From NCBI GenBank assembly GCA_028689775.1, contig JAQVCM010000011.1, positions 1 to 64,000 of the forward strand: a DNA stretch of 64,000 bases, given 5' to 3'. Shown in pieces: positions 3,039 through 42,732 of the stretch. The translations under genes and the position numbers were made by a program. The number at the start of each line of letters is the position of its first letter. Positions within the stretch are counted from its first letter, which is position 1. The notes below the pieces were generated by a model that saw only the letters and a program-made list of their open reading frames with translations, ran no database searches and was not told the origin of the DNA. The stretch comes from Crocinitomicaceae bacterium (GTDB lineage: Bacteria; Bacteroidota; Bacteroidia; Flavobacteriales_D; Crocinitomicaceae).

Positions 3039-4871
3039 CTACATAAATTCCCAAGCACTTCCATACGCATCTTGTTCTTCGCAATGCGCCAAAAATTCCT
3101 TGAAAAACGGATCATTTCCGAAAGTGACACTATCACCAACAATGATTAAATTTTCTTGTGCTCTCGTAAATGCAACATTTAATCGTCGGTAATCTTTCAG
3201 GAATCCTAGTTTTCCGTCTTCGTTGGAACGTACTAAGGAAATGAAAACCGTTTCGCATTCTTGTCCTTGAAAACTATCGATGGTCGAAATCCGAAGGTCT
3301 TTCGAGAAACGTTCTTTTGCTAGCGCGACTTGTCCAGCATACGGAGAGATAAAAGCACATTTTTTCGAATCGACTTTCATTTGTTCCATGATCTTTTCGA
3401 TGATTTCTAATTCTCCTGGATTCGTTAAACTTCTATTTTCTGAAGATGATTGTTCTTCGAAACCAGTTCCAGCAGTGTCGTAGAATTGGAAATGTTTCCC
3501 AGTATTTTGTAAATGTGCTGGTGTTTGCAATTGTCCATCGTAGAAATAAGCATTCGGAAAATCGATGATGGATTGCCGCATTCTGTATTGCGTATTCAGT
3601 AAATGTTTTTTAGGATATTTCTCTAAAACGACCTCTAAAAATGATTTATTGAATCCATTTCGAATCGCTTCTTCGGAAATCACAGTTGGCGGTAATTGCT
3701 GATGATCTCCAGCGAGAACCAGGCGTTGCACGTTGCGAATTGCCGTCCAAGCTAAAGGTTCCAAGCACTGTCCCGCTTCGTCCATTACCAAGGTGTCAAA
3801 TTGTTTTCCGCTCAGCAACCTGTCGTTTAGACCGATTGGTGTTCCACAGATTACGGAGACTTCGTCGATCCATTTATCCGCATAAAAGGCTTGTAACGAA
3901 CGAATTTCCTTGCGAATATTTTTCACTTCTTGCATCAATAATTTGCGTTGATCTCGGTCGTCTTTCCCAAAATGACGTTTATATTGATGCGCCATTTTCC
4001 GAAATTCTTCTGCTTGAATTCTTAGTTTCTTAATTTGTTTCTGCTCGTTTCCTTGCGCCATTTTTCCTTCCAACGTACACGGCAATAATCGGCTATCGAC
4101 TTTGGTTTGATTTCCGAGTCTCATCAATGGAACACCAGCACGAATCAATTCCAAAGCAATGTGATCTGTTGCTGCATTACTCGGTGCTGTGACCAATACT
4201 TTCTCACCATTTTTGACTAATTGAACAATTCCTTCCACCAACGTTGTAGTTTTTCCTGTTCCTGGAGGTCCGTGAACAATGACAATCGCTTCCGAAGCAT
4301 TCATCGCTTTCACTGCTTCGTTTTGAGAATCGTTCAAGCGTTCGCTTTCAATTGCAAGGTGCGAAAAAGGTTCTGGCAAGAATTTATCATTTGCTTGATG
4401 CAGATACGCGTAAAACGGATACGCTTCAGCAGTTGTTCCATCGTCCAATCGCTCTAAAACAGCCCTTACAATTTCTTGTGTATTGGTATCGGGAGTTAAT
4501 TTAATTCCCAACTCACCATCGTCAATCCAACTTGGAAAATCTGGTGCAAATAAACGGACATCAATTGATTTATTCGAAACTGAAAGTAGCACTCCTTTGA
4601 TAGAAGTTTCGCCTTCGCAAAATAATTCAATGGTATTTCCATCTCTGAAATTTTCGATGGATTGACTCAAAGGAACCTGTAAAACACATTCAGGATATTC
4701 AGCAAAACCGTATGTTTTTCGAGAAATTCGAACTGGATGAAGTGCTACACCGTCGCGTTTCAAAGCTTTGATACCGCCAGCATCTTTGACCGCATAGCGA
4801 TCTTCCTGTGCTTTTTCTTCGAGTTTGAGTTGATTTAAGAGATATTGAATGTGTGGATCTGTACTTGCCAT
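3039..4871 (-). CDS. UPF1/IGHMBP2-like superfamily 1 helicase
   Basis: SF1B AAA-type helicase of 610 residues. Walker A GPPGTGKTTT is at 201-210, and Walker B is DEAG at 364-367. AGDHQQLPPT (motif III), QYRMRQSI (IV), DSFQGQECE (V) and NVAFTRAQ (VI) follow in order. The N-terminal 190 residues resemble the beta-barrel accessory domain of IGHMBP2-like bacterial proteins. It probably unwinds DNA or RNA using ATP; the biological role is not evident. It is monocistronic and convergent with cmk. The start MASTDPHIQYLLNQL is typical for this family in Bacteroidota. Confidence 0.9.
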   Translation of the reverse strand: MASTDPHIQYLLNQLKLEEKAQEDRYAVKDAGGIKALKRDGVALHPVRISRKTYGFAEYPECVLQVPLSQSIENFRDGNTIELFCEGETSIKGVLLSVSNKSIDVRLFAPDFPSWIDDGELGIKLTPDTNTQEIVRAVLERLDDGTTAEAYPFYAYLHQANDKFLPEPFSHLAIESERLNDSQNEAVKAMNASEAIVIVHGPPGTGKTTTLVEGIVQLVKNGEKVLVTAPSNAATDHIALELIRAGVPLMRLGNQTKVDSRLLPCTLEGKMAQGNEQKQIKKLRIQAEEFRKMAHQYKRHFGKDDRDQRKLLMQEVKNIRKEIRSLQAFYADKWIDEVSVICGTPIGLNDRLLSGKQFDTLVMDEAGQCLEPLAWTAIRNVQRLVLAGDHQQLPPTVISEEAIRNGFNKSFLEVVLEKYPKKHLLNTQYRMRQSIIDFPNAYFYDGQLQTPAHLQNTGKHFQFYDTAGTGFEEQSSSENRSLTNPGELEIIEKIMEQMKVDSKKCAFISPYAGQVALAKERFSKDLRISTIDSFQGQECETVFISLVRSNEDGKLGFLKDYRRLNVAFTRAQENLIIVGDSVTFGNDPFFKEFLAHCEEQDAYGSAWEFM

Positions 4872-4956
4872 AGAATAAAAATGAGCTTTTTGAAACGCAA
4901 AAAAACAGTTAAATATAGCGATAATTATTCGACTTCGAAGACAAGATTAGTCTTTT

Positions 4957-5174
4957 TAATAACCTGAGTTCGATTGTAAAATTGAGATTTATATTTCAAT
5001 GAATGCGTATAATACGAGGAATTTTAAATAAAAAATAGTGGACTATTTTTTATTTAAAATGACGAAGTAGGATGCCATTCATTGGAAAGCTGAACAAAGC
5101 GGATTTTGAATAGTTTATTATAATCTTATAATCAGCGATATAAATTCGATGGGATAATCGAACTCAGGTTAATA
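4957..5174. mobile_element. MITE-like element, copy A, with TAATA target duplication
   Basis: The element spans 4962-5169 (208 bp). It starts ACCTGAGTTCGATT and ends with the inverse, AATCGAACTCAGGT. TAATA occurs directly on both sides (4957-4961 and 5170-5174), as expected for a 5-bp target-site duplication. Near the centre an AT-rich perfect palindrome flanks TGGA, and CAATGAATG/CATTCATTG form a further inverted pair. It contains no ORF. Copies B and C (40.4 and 42.5 kb) lie in the opposite orientation. It occupies most of the 4872-5354 spacer. Confidence 0.85.
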
Positions 5175-5336
5175 AGTACTTCAGGAGTTAATCGAGGTAT
5201 TACCAACTCACAGCGTGAACGATTAGATCTGACAGATAAAATTCTCTGTAAAGCACAGTTTTATTGTAAAATCTAGGTTAATATTCAAATTCATCGCTCT
5301 TTTACATGTCATTTTTTAGTAAATTCACGCAATTAT

Positions 5337-5344
5337 TATCTTTG
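5337..5344 (+). promoter_or_regulatory. Bacteroidota -7 promoter box
   Basis: TATCTTTG matches the Bacteroidota -7 consensus TAnnTTTG, 10 bases before the Gcr-like ATG at 5355. A T-run lies where a -33 element would be but is not a clear TTG. The very short leader implies a nearly leaderless transcript. Confidence 0.45.
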
Positions 5345-5354
5345 CCCAAATTCT

Positions 5355-7400
5355 ATGAAACTCAGACATCGCACTATTTTCAAAAAACCTTTAAGTACCA
5401 TTTTCGATTCACTTGAACTTGGTAAAACAGAAGAGGCGCGAGAAAATCAATTGAGAACTTTTGCAGATTTAGTGAACATAGTTCGACCGAAATATCCGAA
5501 AGAAATAGATTTTGTTTCAATCGAACCCATTTTAGAGTTCCTAAGAGAAAATGAAGATCGTCGGCTGAAATTGGCAGAGCTTTTCAACAATTTAGTTGAC
5601 TTTAAAACCTTCAAAAACATCTTGACCGATGCTGGAATTTTACAAGATTCTAGTTTTAAAGAAGAAATAAAACGTCGTATTATTTCAAAGGTTATTCCGT
5701 TTCAACCTAAGAAAGAAACCTTAGAATATATTTTAACACAGGTATTCTACCTTCAAAAAGACATCATTTGGATCGAGAAAATTCCACTTGCTGAATTGAT
5801 TCAATTGTATGATTTACTTGAGGTTAAATCCATCTATTTCTCGGTTGAAAACAAAAGCTCCATGGATGAAATCTTAAATGCCATGCGTTTGATTACCCAA
5901 CGAATGAGCGGAAGAGCCTTGGAAGCAGAGGTAATGAAAATGATTCCTGAATACGACAATTTAGAAAGTCCGTTTGAAGCCTTGGAAAAAGCTTTCGACG
6001 ACGTTGAAAATAAAGTCAGAGACAGTTATCCGCACCGTATTTTATCCGATGACATTGATTTCAGACACTTGCAAATTGTTCATTTACAATGTGTTCAATT
6101 TGTTGAAAAAGCTTACAAGAACAGTTCTAAATTTGGAATATCACTTCAAGTAAATCAAAGTTTACTGAGAATCAAACAACAACTTTCCCGCTTGGAAACC
6201 TTGTGGTTGTTTTTGGTAGCTGAAAATGAAGAAGCAGAAAAATTCAATTCAATACAATTGATTTTAAGGTTAATTCAATACAACTGCATTAAAAATAACG
6301 TCTCCAAACTGTTCAACGAAAGTACGCAGTTGATCGCTTATGAAATTACGCAACATACCGCAAAAACGGGAGAACATTACATAACTAGCAGTACAAAAGA
6401 GTATTTCAGCATGTTTAAAAGTGCGATGCTCGGAGGTGTTATCGTTGGCGTTTTATGCGTTATAAAATTACTACTCGGTAAAATTCCTGCCAGCGATTTG
6501 GGTCACGCCTTAATTTACAGTGCGAATTACGCCATCGGATTTACAACCATTTACCTCATCGGGGCAACATTAGCAACCAAGCAACCTGCTATGACAGCTG
6601 CCGCTTTAATTCAATCCATTGAAAAAGGAAAAGGTGAAAAGAAAGATATCAAATATCGCTCTTTTGCAGAACTTTTTGCCCGACTTTTCCGTTCACAATT
6701 CATTGCATTTGTTGGAAACGTCCTCTTAGCTTTTCCTGTTTCCTTGATTGGAATTTGGTTATTGGATTTTATTTTCAACATTAATTTTGCTGAATCTAAA
6801 TGGCCTAAATTACTCACTGACAACAGTCCAATCCATTCGCCAGCAATTTTCCATGCGGCCATTGCAGGTGTGTTTTTATTCTTGGCAGGAATTATTTCTG
6901 GAAGTATATCCAATTCCAACAAACACAATCAATTGTATTATCGAATTCAAGAACATCCAATTCTCAAAATGAGTTTGGGAAAAGCCCGCACCATGCGCAT
7001 CGCCAATTGGTTTGAGAAAAAATGGGCAGGCGTAGCTTCCAACATTTGGTTTGGTATATTCATGGGTTCTACCGCTTCAGTTGGCGCTTTTATTGGACTC
7101 GATTTAGACATTCGACACATTACTTTTGTGAGTGGAAACTTAGCACTCGGCCTATTTGGCGCCAATTTCCACATCTCCAGCAGCATGCTTTTTTGGGCAA
7201 CTTTTGGAATCGCAGTGATTGGTTTTATGAACTTCATCGTCAGTTTCTTGCTTTCTCTTACCTTGGCTTTCCGTTCGAGAAGCATTCCTTTGAGTGAGTT
7301 AAAATTCTTGTTTAGAGCCGTCTGGAAATATTTTAAGAAGAATCCATTTTTGTTTTTCATTCCCGTGAAACCGAAGGACATCAAGAAGTTTAAGATCTAG
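5355..7400 (+). CDS. Gcr-family (SpecificRecomb) multi-pass membrane protein
   Basis: 681-residue protein resembling the family labelled site-specific recombinase Gcr. The first 350 residues are soluble, helical and charged. The second half has about 6-7 hydrophobic segments, starting near FKSAMLGGVIVGVLCVI, and contains the conserved YLIGATLATKQPAMTAA stretch. The recombinase label comes from an old Neisseria annotation; no tyrosine- or serine-recombinase catalytic motif is visible, and an inner-membrane protein of unknown function is a better description. It stands alone between MITE copy A and a convergent ABC exporter. Confidence 0.75.
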   Translation: MKLRHRTIFKKPLSTIFDSLELGKTEEARENQLRTFADLVNIVRPKYPKEIDFVSIEPILEFLRENEDRRLKLAELFNNLVDFKTFKNILTDAGILQDSSFKEEIKRRIISKVIPFQPKKETLEYILTQVFYLQKDIIWIEKIPLAELIQLYDLLEVKSIYFSVENKSSMDEILNAMRLITQRMSGRALEAEVMKMIPEYDNLESPFEALEKAFDDVENKVRDSYPHRILSDDIDFRHLQIVHLQCVQFVEKAYKNSSKFGISLQVNQSLLRIKQQLSRLETLWLFLVAENEEAEKFNSIQLILRLIQYNCIKNNVSKLFNESTQLIAYEITQHTAKTGEHYITSSTKEYFSMFKSAMLGGVIVGVLCVIKLLLGKIPASDLGHALIYSANYAIGFTTIYLIGATLATKQPAMTAAALIQSIEKGKGEKKDIKYRSFAELFARLFRSQFIAFVGNVLLAFPVSLIGIWLLDFIFNINFAESKWPKLLTDNSPIHSPAIFHAAIAGVFLFLAGIISGSISNSNKHNQLYYRIQEHPILKMSLGKARTMRIANWFEKKWAGVASNIWFGIFMGSTASVGAFIGLDLDIRHITFVSGNLALGLFGANFHISSSMLFWATFGIAVIGFMNFIVSFLLSLTLAFRSRSIPLSELKFLFRAVWKYFKKNPFLFFIPVKPKDIKKFKI

Positions 7401-18936: not shown

Positions 18937-19310
18937 CTATTTATTTGTGTTTTCTATCTCTTTTTGCGATCTAAATATACGGAAAATTTAGCAGCTTTTT
19001 GCTGGAATCATCCAAATGAATTGTATTTTCTTTTTCTTTCTTGGAGAAAATCGACTTTTTACCGAACCGAAAAGCCTCGAATGCTTCATCATTACTGATA
19101 AACATGCATCTTGACTTCTATAAAATTCATTTTAAATTGAACTAACATTCCTCCTGTACGTTGCATAAAAATTTAATTCTTAAGAATCTAGTACGAAGTT
19201 GGGAAATTAAAGTCAACTATACTGTCACTTTGGTTACACACTATTTTTAGCGGAACTAAAAAAAAATAATTTACACTTAATTTGATGCTAAACCCTAAGA
19301 AAATACCCTT

Positions 19311-19353
19311 TCATTGAAATAAAAATCTCAATTTTACTATCAAACTCAGGTTA
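19311..19353. mobile_element. Degenerate MITE end (copy D remnant)
   Basis: TTCATTGAAAT, AAATCTCAATTTTAC and ATCAAACTCAGGT follow in the same order as the right end of MITE copies B and C. No left end is visible, so this is a truncated or decayed copy. The rest of the 18937-19447 spacer shows nothing I can assign. Confidence 0.6.
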
Positions 19354-40361: not shown

Positions 40362-40578
40362 TAAAAACCTGAGTTCGATTGTCTCATCGAATTTATCTCG
40401 CTGATTATAAGCCGATCATAAACTGTTCAGAATTCTCATTTTTCAGCTTTCCAATAAATGTCATCTTACTTCGTCATTTTTAATAAAAACAGCCCACAAT
40501 TTTTCATTTAAAATTTCTCGTATTATACGCATTCATTGAAATATAAATCTCATTTTTGCAATCGAACTCAGATTAAAA
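40362..40578. mobile_element. MITE-like element, copy B, with TAAAA target duplication
   Basis: The element spans 40367-40573 (207 bp): it starts ACCTGAGTTCGATTG and ends CAATCGAACTCAGAT. TAAAA flanks it directly (40362-40366 and 40574-40578). Its target duplication differs from the TAATA at copies A and C, which supports real duplication of target DNA. It inserted 5 bases past the terminator. Inverted relative to copy A. Confidence 0.85.
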
Positions 40579-40662: not shown

Positions 40663-41592
40663 ATGAAACAATATCTTGGAATAATTCTCTCCGTAATCTA
40701 TGCACTGGCAATTCGCTTATTGGGAGAAATGGACGTAATTGAAATCAATTCGATCAGTTTTTTAATAATTACACCCATATTGATCGGCTTCGTTCCATTT
40801 TTCTTCAAGCAAACTGAATTCCTTCGAAGCACGTATAAGGTAATTGGTTTTCCGATTATTTCTGTTCTCCTATTTTTGATGATCGCTGTGATTAGTCGAC
40901 TAGAAGATTTAGCATGCTTTATCATTATTGGATTTCCGTATGTCTTAATTTCTGCAGCTGCTAGTCTGATTCTTAGATCAATTTTCGAGGATAAAAACAA
41001 GAGTATCCATAAAAATGCACTTCCCATTTATCTGTTGCCAATTCTTTTTGGAATGATGGAAAAACAACTTCCAAAGCAAGAGACTGAACTCACGATTAGC
41101 AATGAAATAAGCATCCATAGTAATCCACAAACCATTTGGAACAACCTTTTGAATGTTCCGGATTTAAAAAATGAACGAAAATCAAGTTTCATTCATCTTC
41201 TTGGAATTCCGAGACCTATTAAATCAAGTTATGACGCCAAGACGAACATTCGTTTGGGATATTTTGAGAATGACATTGTACTAAATGAATCTGTAGTTGA
41301 AAGTATTCCCTTGCAAAAAATGATTTTTAAAATCAATTTAAACAATTCAAATCTTAAAAACAGTCCAACCTTGGAACATGTTCTGAAAAATAAGAACATT
41401 GAATTTAAGCACATCACCTATCAGTTGTCGGCTATCAATGAAAAGCGAACGAAATTGAAATTAAGTACCACGTTTACGGTTCACACCAATATTTCTTTTT
41501 ACGGAAAATTTTGGAGTAAACTGATTATTGAAGATTTTGAAACAAATCTCTTGCAGTCTTTGAAAAGCACCATCGAGCAGAAGAATTTATAA
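40663..41592 (+). CDS. Membrane protein with C-terminal SRPBCC-like domain
   Basis: 309 residues. Four hydrophobic segments occupy about residues 1-130 (YLGIILSVIYALAIRLL, FLIITPILIGFVPFFF, ISVLLFLMIAVI, ACFIIIGFPYVLISAAASLIL). The remaining 170 residues begin ELTISNEISIHSNPQTIWNNL, a pattern typical of START/SRPBCC polyketide-cyclase-like domains that bind hydrophobic ligands. I do not recognise a named family. It starts 90 bases after MITE copy B and precedes an AraC regulator by 61 bases. Confidence 0.65.
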   Translation: MKQYLGIILSVIYALAIRLLGEMDVIEINSISFLIITPILIGFVPFFFKQTEFLRSTYKVIGFPIISVLLFLMIAVISRLEDLACFIIIGFPYVLISAAASLILRSIFEDKNKSIHKNALPIYLLPILFGMMEKQLPKQETELTISNEISIHSNPQTIWNNLLNVPDLKNERKSSFIHLLGIPRPIKSSYDAKTNIRLGYFENDIVLNESVVESIPLQKMIFKINLNNSNLKNSPTLEHVLKNKNIEFKHITYQLSAINEKRTKLKLSTTFTVHTNISFYGKFWSKLIIEDFETNLLQSLKSTIEQKNL

Positions 41593-41653: not shown

Positions 41654-42466
41654 ATGTACGATATATTCATTCCAAAATCCGAAATTCTTCAAAAATACAT
41701 CCACAACATCTGTGTTATGCAAGCGTTTTCTGAAGCGATCAACTACTTGGCATTTCCGCAGTTGGGAACATCCATTGCATTTTACAAGCACACAAAAATT
41801 GTACTGGACGAAAATTGTATTTATCTGGAAAACAACCTGAAAGAAAACACTCAGGTATTACTTTTGGGAAAATACACTTTGCCAATTCAACTCCATTTTC
41901 AGCAATATACTCCTGAAGTTTCGATCAACTTTACAGCTACTGGACTGAATTATTTCTTTGAAAAAAATACAGATGAAATCGCCAGTGAAAACGTACAATT
42001 AATCACTTCAGAGATTTGGACTGAAACTGTTAATCAAATTTTCGAGCAGGAAACCAGCGCACAAAAAGTTGAAGTTTTGGAAGAACGCATCTTATCGATC
42101 TTGATTGAAAAAGACATCTCACTTACAGAGAATTTCATTTCGATTATGAATGAAAATCCAGAACAAACGATTACTGACATTGCAGCAAATTTAGGCGTTT
42201 CATCCAAAACAATCAACAGACAATTTACAAAATACGTAGGATGTAGTCCCATGGAATATAAAAAAATCGTTCGCTTTCGAAAAGCAATTCAAACCAAATT
42301 CAGCGAACCTTTTAAAAATTTAACGCAGGTTTGCTTCGACAGTAACTTCTACGATTCTCCGCATTTTACCCGCGAATTTAAAAAATTGACACAACTGAAT
42401 CCACGAGATTTTTTCACACAAATTGACGATGTCGGAAAACAAGCAATTCCTTACAAATTCTTATAA
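41654..42466 (+). CDS. AraC family transcriptional regulator
   Basis: 270 residues with a C-terminal AraC HTH pair: TITDIAANLGVSSKTINRQFTKYVG and FKNLTQVCFDSNFYDSPHFTREFKKL, followed by LNPRDFF. The N-terminal 150 residues are a sensor-like domain (DUF6597-type, with PEVSINFTATGLNYFF) common in Bacteroidota AraC regulators. Ligand and targets are unknown. The SRPBCC-like membrane gene upstream may share its operon. MITE copy C follows 55 bases downstream. Confidence 0.88.
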   Translation: MYDIFIPKSEILQKYIHNICVMQAFSEAINYLAFPQLGTSIAFYKHTKIVLDENCIYLENNLKENTQVLLLGKYTLPIQLHFQQYTPEVSINFTATGLNYFFEKNTDEIASENVQLITSEIWTETVNQIFEQETSAQKVEVLEERILSILIEKDISLTENFISIMNENPEQTITDIAANLGVSSKTINRQFTKYVGCSPMEYKKIVRFRKAIQTKFSEPFKNLTQVCFDSNFYDSPHFTREFKKLTQLNPRDFFTQIDDVGKQAIPYKFL

Positions 42467-42520: not shown

Positions 42521-42732
42521 TAATAACCTGAGTTCGATTATCCCATCGAATTTATATCGCTGATTATAAGATTATAATAAACTATTCAAAATTTGTTCAG
42601 CTTTCCAATGAATGGCATCCTACTTCGTCATTTTAAATAAAAATAGTCCACTATTTTTTATTTAAAATTTCTCGTATTATACGCATTCATTGAAATATAA
42701 ATCTCAATTTGACAATCGAACTCAAGTTAATA
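42521..42732. mobile_element. MITE-like element, copy C, with TAATA target duplication
   Basis: The element spans 42526-42727 (202 bp): it starts ACCTGAGTTCGATTA and ends ATCGAACTCAAGT. TAATA flanks it directly (42521-42525 and 42728-42732). The central AT-rich palindrome of copy A is present (ATTTTAAATAAAAATAG and its inverse). Same orientation as copy B. Its right end lies 13 bases before the start codon of the 61-residue membrane gene. Confidence 0.85.

Follow-up and report, generated by a model that had tools for sequence, protein, structure and literature searches.

The window analysed here, a stretch of 64,000 nucleotides from a Crocinitomicaceae bacterium (contig JAQVCM010000011.1), carries three full copies of a MITE-like repeat, each bounded by a 5-bp direct duplication and each containing a hairpin module, together with a decayed end of the same family. 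Its features are as follows; the scores of the modules refer to models described below.

4957..4961, no strand: left target duplication of copy 1, TAATA
4962..5169, minus strand (reverse of the consensus orientation): MITE copy 1, 208 bp, 1 substitution from the consensus
4992..5087, plus strand: hairpin module of copy 1 (L001, also a training row of R1), 68.3 bits with R1 and 65.9 bits with R3
5170..5174, no strand: right target duplication of copy 1, TAATA
19303..19351, plus strand: decayed end fragment, consensus positions 159-207 at 89.8% identity
40362..40366, no strand: left target duplication of copy 2, TAAAA
40367..40573, plus strand: MITE copy 2, 207 bp, 24 substitutions from the consensus, the most diverged of the 30 listed full copies
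40448..40543, minus strand: hairpin module of copy 2 (L030, also a training row of R1), 57.4 bits with R1
40574..40578, no strand: right target duplication of copy 2, TAAAA
42521..42525, no strand: left target duplication of copy 3, TAATA
42526..42727, plus strand: MITE copy 3, 202 bp
42603..42697, minus strand: hairpin module of copy 3 (L013, not a training row of R1), 70.7 bits with R1
42728..42732, no strand: right target duplication of copy 3, TAATA

The initial annotation had placed the three full copies, with their ends and flanking repeats, at exactly these positions and had recognised the decayed end at 19311-19353; both hold, as do the AT-rich palindrome of the interior, which forms a perfect stem of 18 bp, and the lack of an encoded protein (no ORF of 80 aa or more lies inside the three copies). 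As for the two genes it had named beside copies 2 and 3, the AraC gene (41654-42466) was confirmed, while the SRPBCC gene (40663-41592), for which a Pfam match at 1e-3 was absent, remained unconfirmed. With up to three mismatches allowed, ACCTGAGTTCGATT is found at 18 places in the window where 7.8 would be expected, and none of 100 shuffles attained this count of 18; a search of the window with R3 matched the three MITE copies and nothing else. The gene to the right of copy 1 (window 5355-7400) has a whole-length Pfam match to PF10136, 'Site-specific recombinase'.

A search of the whole source genome (G000; 3.47 Mb in a 48-contig draft, 99.99% complete) gave 74 matches, comprising at least 30 full-length copies of 202–208 bp as well as partial copies; the number of full copies is a lower bound, as 40 of the 78 first-look candidates were scored. 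The picture of a non-autonomous element with inverted ends, 14 bp long, and 5-bp duplications holds genome-wide. Flanking 5-mers are identical in 22 of the 30 listed full copies, differ by one mismatch in seven and by two in one, compared with a mean of 5.4 and a maximum of 12 identical pairs upon random re-pairing (2000 trials). The flanking repeats are target duplications, as had been claimed, and the contrary case of copies devoid of them did not occur, 29 of 30 keeping them with at most one mismatch. In these 29 listed copies the duplicated target is TAWTA-like, with T at position 1 in 28, A at position 2 in 25 and A at position 5 in all 29.

Divergence from the consensus ranges from 1 to 24 substitutions and the closest pairs differ at 2 of ~207 bases, from which it follows that insertions were spread over time and that some are recent. 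A simple ORF scan with a minimum of 100 aa found no frame that encloses any of the 30 copies; the neighbours are in tandem around 18 of them, convergent around 8 and divergent around 4. At seven of the 30 (L004, L010, L015, L017, L019, L025, L028) a neighbouring frame ends at the element or up to 41 bp inside it, and at such junctions a TAA stop is formed by the TA of the target and the first A of the element. Internally deleted copies exist, down to 32 bp. Three of this length, with their ends nearly back to back (L041 1653-1684, L042 1639-1670, L043 1592-1623), have the same sequence, one of them reversed, and sit at different sites with the perfect duplications TACAA, TATTA and TAGTA. Movement in this form cannot be told from repeated loss of the interior, by deletion between short repeats, in copies already inserted; as the junction sits in a short repeat near both ends, deletion after insertion suffices to explain them.

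The gene pair flanking copy 1 is kept in two congeners (G001 and G004), with nothing end-like between the genes (at least 5 mismatches) and with ~150 bp from one matched gene part to the other; at copy 1 the genes themselves are 483 bp apart. The comparison of empty sites proposed in the initial annotation therefore yields, for copy 1, two congeners that possess the gene pair and lack the element, by synteny, the intergenic DNA being too diverged to align; the case in which all copies occupy identical orthologous sites did not occur. G002 matched one gene of the pair only and G003 none, and for copies 2 and 3 informative synteny was not found. A search for relatives in annotated plasmids and phages gave no match at 1e-5.

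As regards the supposition that a transposase encoded elsewhere serves these elements, an IS982-family element with the same ends and duplication length is present in other genomes of the bacterial family, but none was found in the source genome. An exact match to ACCTGAGTTCGAT is present in 70 of the 240 family genomes, and in G005, G077, G091 and G092 inverted pairs of ends lie 1026–1042 bp apart around a frame of ~300 aa, which in G005 has one internal stop. The protein of G091 (P0001) is an IS982-family transposase (NF033520 with 259 bits at a cut-off of 130, and PF13612), and the left ends of these ~1.03-kb elements match the MITE ends in 14 of 14 bases. Among 80 named relatives, 58 retained both flanks and ends that could be recognised; in 17 the ends were not recognisable, and in 5 a flank was missing. 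Of the 32 relatives with ACCT ends, 15 showed a perfect duplication of 5 bp and none a length of 3, 4 or more than 5 bp, compared with duplications of 6–8 bp in 13 of 26 relatives with ACGT ends (Bacteroidota IS982 loci L111-L190); the type of end thus predicts the duplication length, the MITE behaving like the ACCT-ended relatives. Against this stands the absence of matching flanks at the four ISs of the Crocinitomicaceae themselves (L061-L064, one of them at a contig end).

In the source genome, P0001 had no relative at 1e-10, against 16 of the 240 family genomes with one, and nothing exceeded the IS982 cut-off. Since such a transposase was not found there, the MITE family looks orphaned in this 48-contig draft. 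In G003 and G004 contigs break inside the IS, as collapsed repeats do; none of the listed MITE ends in the source genome lies within ~190 bp of a contig end. Comparison by eye found no sequence shared by the MITE interior and the IS beyond their ends, which argues against the MITE being a simple internal-deletion derivative of the IS. Judged from the anatomy of the elements, their mobilisation by IS982 is well supported.

In other genera, most elements that share these ends measure 174–327 bp, and related elements of ~262 bp contain one or two hairpins of ~96 nucleotides at a fixed distance from the ends. In a set of 86 loci, with one truncated flank and a few doubtful pairings, 31 paired elements were found, 22 of them with a perfect duplication. 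Read inward, the halves of these elements fold alike, into the small hairpin of the end itself and then, from ~30 bp in, a long hairpin whose core palindrome lies ~72–75 bp from the end in most halves. The long hairpins are of two types, A and B, one per end and in inverted orientation; the element of the window keeps one full hairpin of the two. The module consists of an outer stem, an internal loop of approximately GACAAGG / AACGAAGTA, a middle stem, a second internal loop and a short palindromic tip, and its internal-loop bases are conserved among elements with unrelated ends. The initial annotation had not recognised this conserved fold of the interior. Searches of Rfam 15 reached no gathering score in the window and gave no relevant match up to E = 5 in 16 element-bearing loci. 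In G199 the tip of several modules is longer by ~22 nucleotides (118-nt matches at C7, C79, C90, C99 and C133; L258 1370-1487); these modules are apparently an amplified sub-lineage with an enlarged loop.

For the analysis of covariation, 18 type A halves of other genomes and three copies of the source genome were picked by eye from 113 inward halves (alignment A2), as were 17 type B halves, with two further type B rows left out (A3); most of the remaining inward halves were either decayed or came from ISs or from ends matched by chance. Both are MAFFT alignments that were not fitted to a structure; the structure was, however, derived from these same alignments, which favours the percentage of paired cells, 85.3% in type A and 88.7% in type B. 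Both sides have changed in 28 of 34 pairs of type A and 24 of 32 pairs of type B. The covariation score was 0.601 for type A (shuffled 0.215 ± 0.017) and 0.518 for type B (shuffled 0.201), values reached in 0 of 500 shuffles each; the relatedness of the rows inflates this contrast, but a control with slid partners, which retains the relatedness, gave scores of 0.11–0.20. A class-wide alignment of 84 rows fitted to the model (A4) had 87.4% of cells paired and a score of 0.725, against 0.213. Within the 30 copies of the source genome only 1 of 54 pairs covaries, so that all evidence from covariation comes from other genera.

The hairpins also have a preferred strand. Folding energy was lower on the inward strand in 35 of 36 halves, and the asymmetry exceeded the mean of the halves' own dinucleotide shuffles in 24 of 24, with composition explaining part of it (a shuffled mean of −4.1 of the −9.8 kcal/mol). 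Elements outside the models agreed more weakly, with asymmetry above the shuffle mean in 13 of 16 of class II, 9 of 9 of class III and 8 of 9 further matches. At fixed consensus pairs, G-T combinations outnumber A-C ones by 94 to 28; among 38 rows, G-T exceeds A-C in 34, falls below it in two and equals it in two. A role of the double strand gives no reason for preferring either strand; the strand bias and the excess of G-T are what would be expected if a single-stranded nucleic acid, probably RNA, were under selection. A shape kept by matching mutations in distant bacteria, between differing ends, suggests a role for the hairpin in its own right.

Model R1, built from A2, detected the module in 44 of the 240 family genomes (threshold 1e-3). 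Among 395 genomes sampled from the class, 19 gave a match at 1e-4, of which 15 belong to nine other families. A relative of P0001 is present in only six of the 44 module-bearing family genomes, which speaks against the link with IS982. In nearly all of 30 inspected R1 loci an ACCTGAG-like end lies at the expected place, the exceptions being L274, which is decayed, and L282, which has ACGTGAGTTCAGG. The element at L282 (1472-1735) combines ACGTGAGTTC ends with a 5-bp duplication, although ACGT-ended IS982 copies make 6–8 bp. In other families, elements ending in GGGNACCTCTAATAATTCATT or GGGAGGTTCTATAAATACATT show a 4-bp duplication (TTAA, TAAA, TCAA) in 8 of 17 cases, one of which (L378) was judged by eye; TAAA and TCAA are not palindromic and are therefore direct repeats outside the inverted ends. 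Ten further elements of ~150–174 bp have a single hairpin, ends such as GAGCCTGTTTAAA or GAACCCATCTTGAC, reminiscent of those of the IS5 family, and flank matches of 3 bp, which are weak evidence of a duplication. No autonomous partner of the GGG-ended class was found among seven genomes of one family or beside three single ends. Of 84 IS-bearing loci searched with R3, only two gave a match: L134, where it lies 1.9 kb away from the IS, and L187, where it is weak.

We consider it probable (about 0.75) that the repeats are a MITE family with the ends of an IS982-family insertion sequence, moved in trans, whose structured interior is under selection as a single strand. The enzyme would have been a DDE transposase of the IS982 type, formerly resident or in transit, which excised the elements and inserted them in trans before its own loss. 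Transcription from a neighbouring gene would most likely run into the element from either side and yield the hairpin as RNA, and since both ends favour the inward strand, entry of RNA from either neighbour is the simplest common context. More doubtfully, the RNA fold might protect, process or end such read-in transcripts; a plain terminator role is weakened by copy 1, where no intrinsic terminator was found (window 4800-5400). It is equally tentative that insertions beside genes would thereby be tolerated and do little harm, so that the lineage survives to move again. Somewhat short of even odds, finally, is the wider reading that the ~96-nt RNA module, read inward, is an independent functional unit of Bacteroidia that has captured, or been captured by, at least three kinds of ends, namely ACCTGAGTTCGAT with 5-bp, GGGNACCTCTAATAAT and GGGAGGTTCTATAAAT with 4-bp and GARNCTGTTTAAA-like ends with possibly 3-bp duplications; it would be a selfish or useful cassette that changes its transposase and keeps its fold.

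These repeats could instead be ordinary MITEs, in which hairpins and covariation are functionless by-products of palindromic DNA, produced by template-switch correction of imperfect inverted repeats. Foldback MITEs are common, covariation is lacking inside the source genome and variation along the element is not significantly uneven, all of which speaks for this account. Template-switch correction, however, yields Watson-Crick palindromes without a strand preference, in conflict with the excess of G-T and the better folding of the inward strand, and it leaves the internal-loop bases kept between unrelated ends unaccounted for; we hold it to be unlikely. A need for the module in transposition itself, for instance as a subterminal site bound or folded by the transposase or a host factor, would fit its near-constant distance from the end. 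Yet autonomous IS982 elements lack it, elements with other ends and duplication lengths possess it, and one-hairpin elements as well as hairpin-less 32-bp copies with intact duplications exist (the latter maybe deleted after insertion), which makes such a role distinctly unlikely.

Quite improbable, too, is that the element encodes a trans-acting small RNA and that its copies are a dispersed RNA gene family: structure and loops are conserved across a class, but promoter signals in copy 1 are at chance level (3 found, 3.0 expected), the two hairpins lie on opposite strands and the copies vary a lot. Another reading takes the hairpins for REP-like sequences that serve a RAYT (REP-associated tyrosine transposase) in the form of folded single-stranded DNA: an element with two inverted hairpins looks like a REPIN, folding is strand-specific, and Y1_Tnp genes occur in 24 of 27 module-bearing genomes tested. 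Against this, R1 and R2 had no match in 30 Y1_Tnp loci (defined by Y1_Tnp, not by subclass 2.6), and R3 matched 2 of 50, of which L334 had been preselected for an adjoining R1 match and the other was weak (E = 3). With the Y1_Tnp loci nearly devoid of the module, no GTAG or GTGG tetranucleotide found by eye at the 5' foot of the hairpin, and DDE-type inverted ends with target duplications on the elements, the RAYT reading is not supported and appears highly improbable. G430 contains thirteen divergent Y1_Tnp genes, most in frames of ~130–225 aa, possibly a RAYT expansion.

The usual view of MITEs is that they are remnants of insertion sequences in decay. In the present elements the conserved part is the one without the transposon ends, a strand-specific, covarying fold found between unrelated ends in no fewer than ten families of a single class. 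If the fold is functional, this would explain how such repeats persist after loss of their transposase; a tested covariance model would then allow the annotation of thousands of intergenic repeats, and the question of what the interiors of bacterial MITEs do would become open to RNA-seq and mutational tests.

ERIC/YPAL, NEMIS/Correia and BOX are small intergenic repeats like the present ones, some of which fold as RNA and act on mRNA; none of them is known to have one structured core common to elements of different transposon ends. Nor was such a core, shared by MITEs with different ends, found in the open-licence PMC literature searched. The repeats resemble REP, REPIN and RAYT systems (PMC6006769) in being non-autonomous and intergenic, with strand-specific hairpins that are often in inverted pairs; that source also notes 'atypical secondary structures' flanking the Bacteroidetes RAYT subclass 2.6. 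They differ from what is described there by a ~96-nt hairpin with internal loops, inverted ends and target duplications, and by having no GTAG foot tag and no RAYT association that we could find. With the IS982 family (PMC7335449) they share ends that begin with AC, and their partner, at 1026–1042 bp, falls within the range of 845–1282 bp and matches NF033520; unlike this family, the repeats encode no transposase, and in the IS982 elements examined the hairpin module is lacking.

The nearest counterparts are MITECca01 and MITECca02 of Cardinium cOegib, already described as MITEs derived from the IS982 family (PMC9769881). They too belong to Bacteroidota, measure ~240 bp, lack a transposase, have IS982-like ends (those of ISCca4) and are mostly intergenic. 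In Cardinium, intact copies of the parental IS accompany the MITE, which retains short subterminal sequence of it, whereas in the present family the partner was not found in the genome and no homology to the IS extends beyond the ends. The IS982-derived MITE part of these elements is, following Cardinium, of a known kind.
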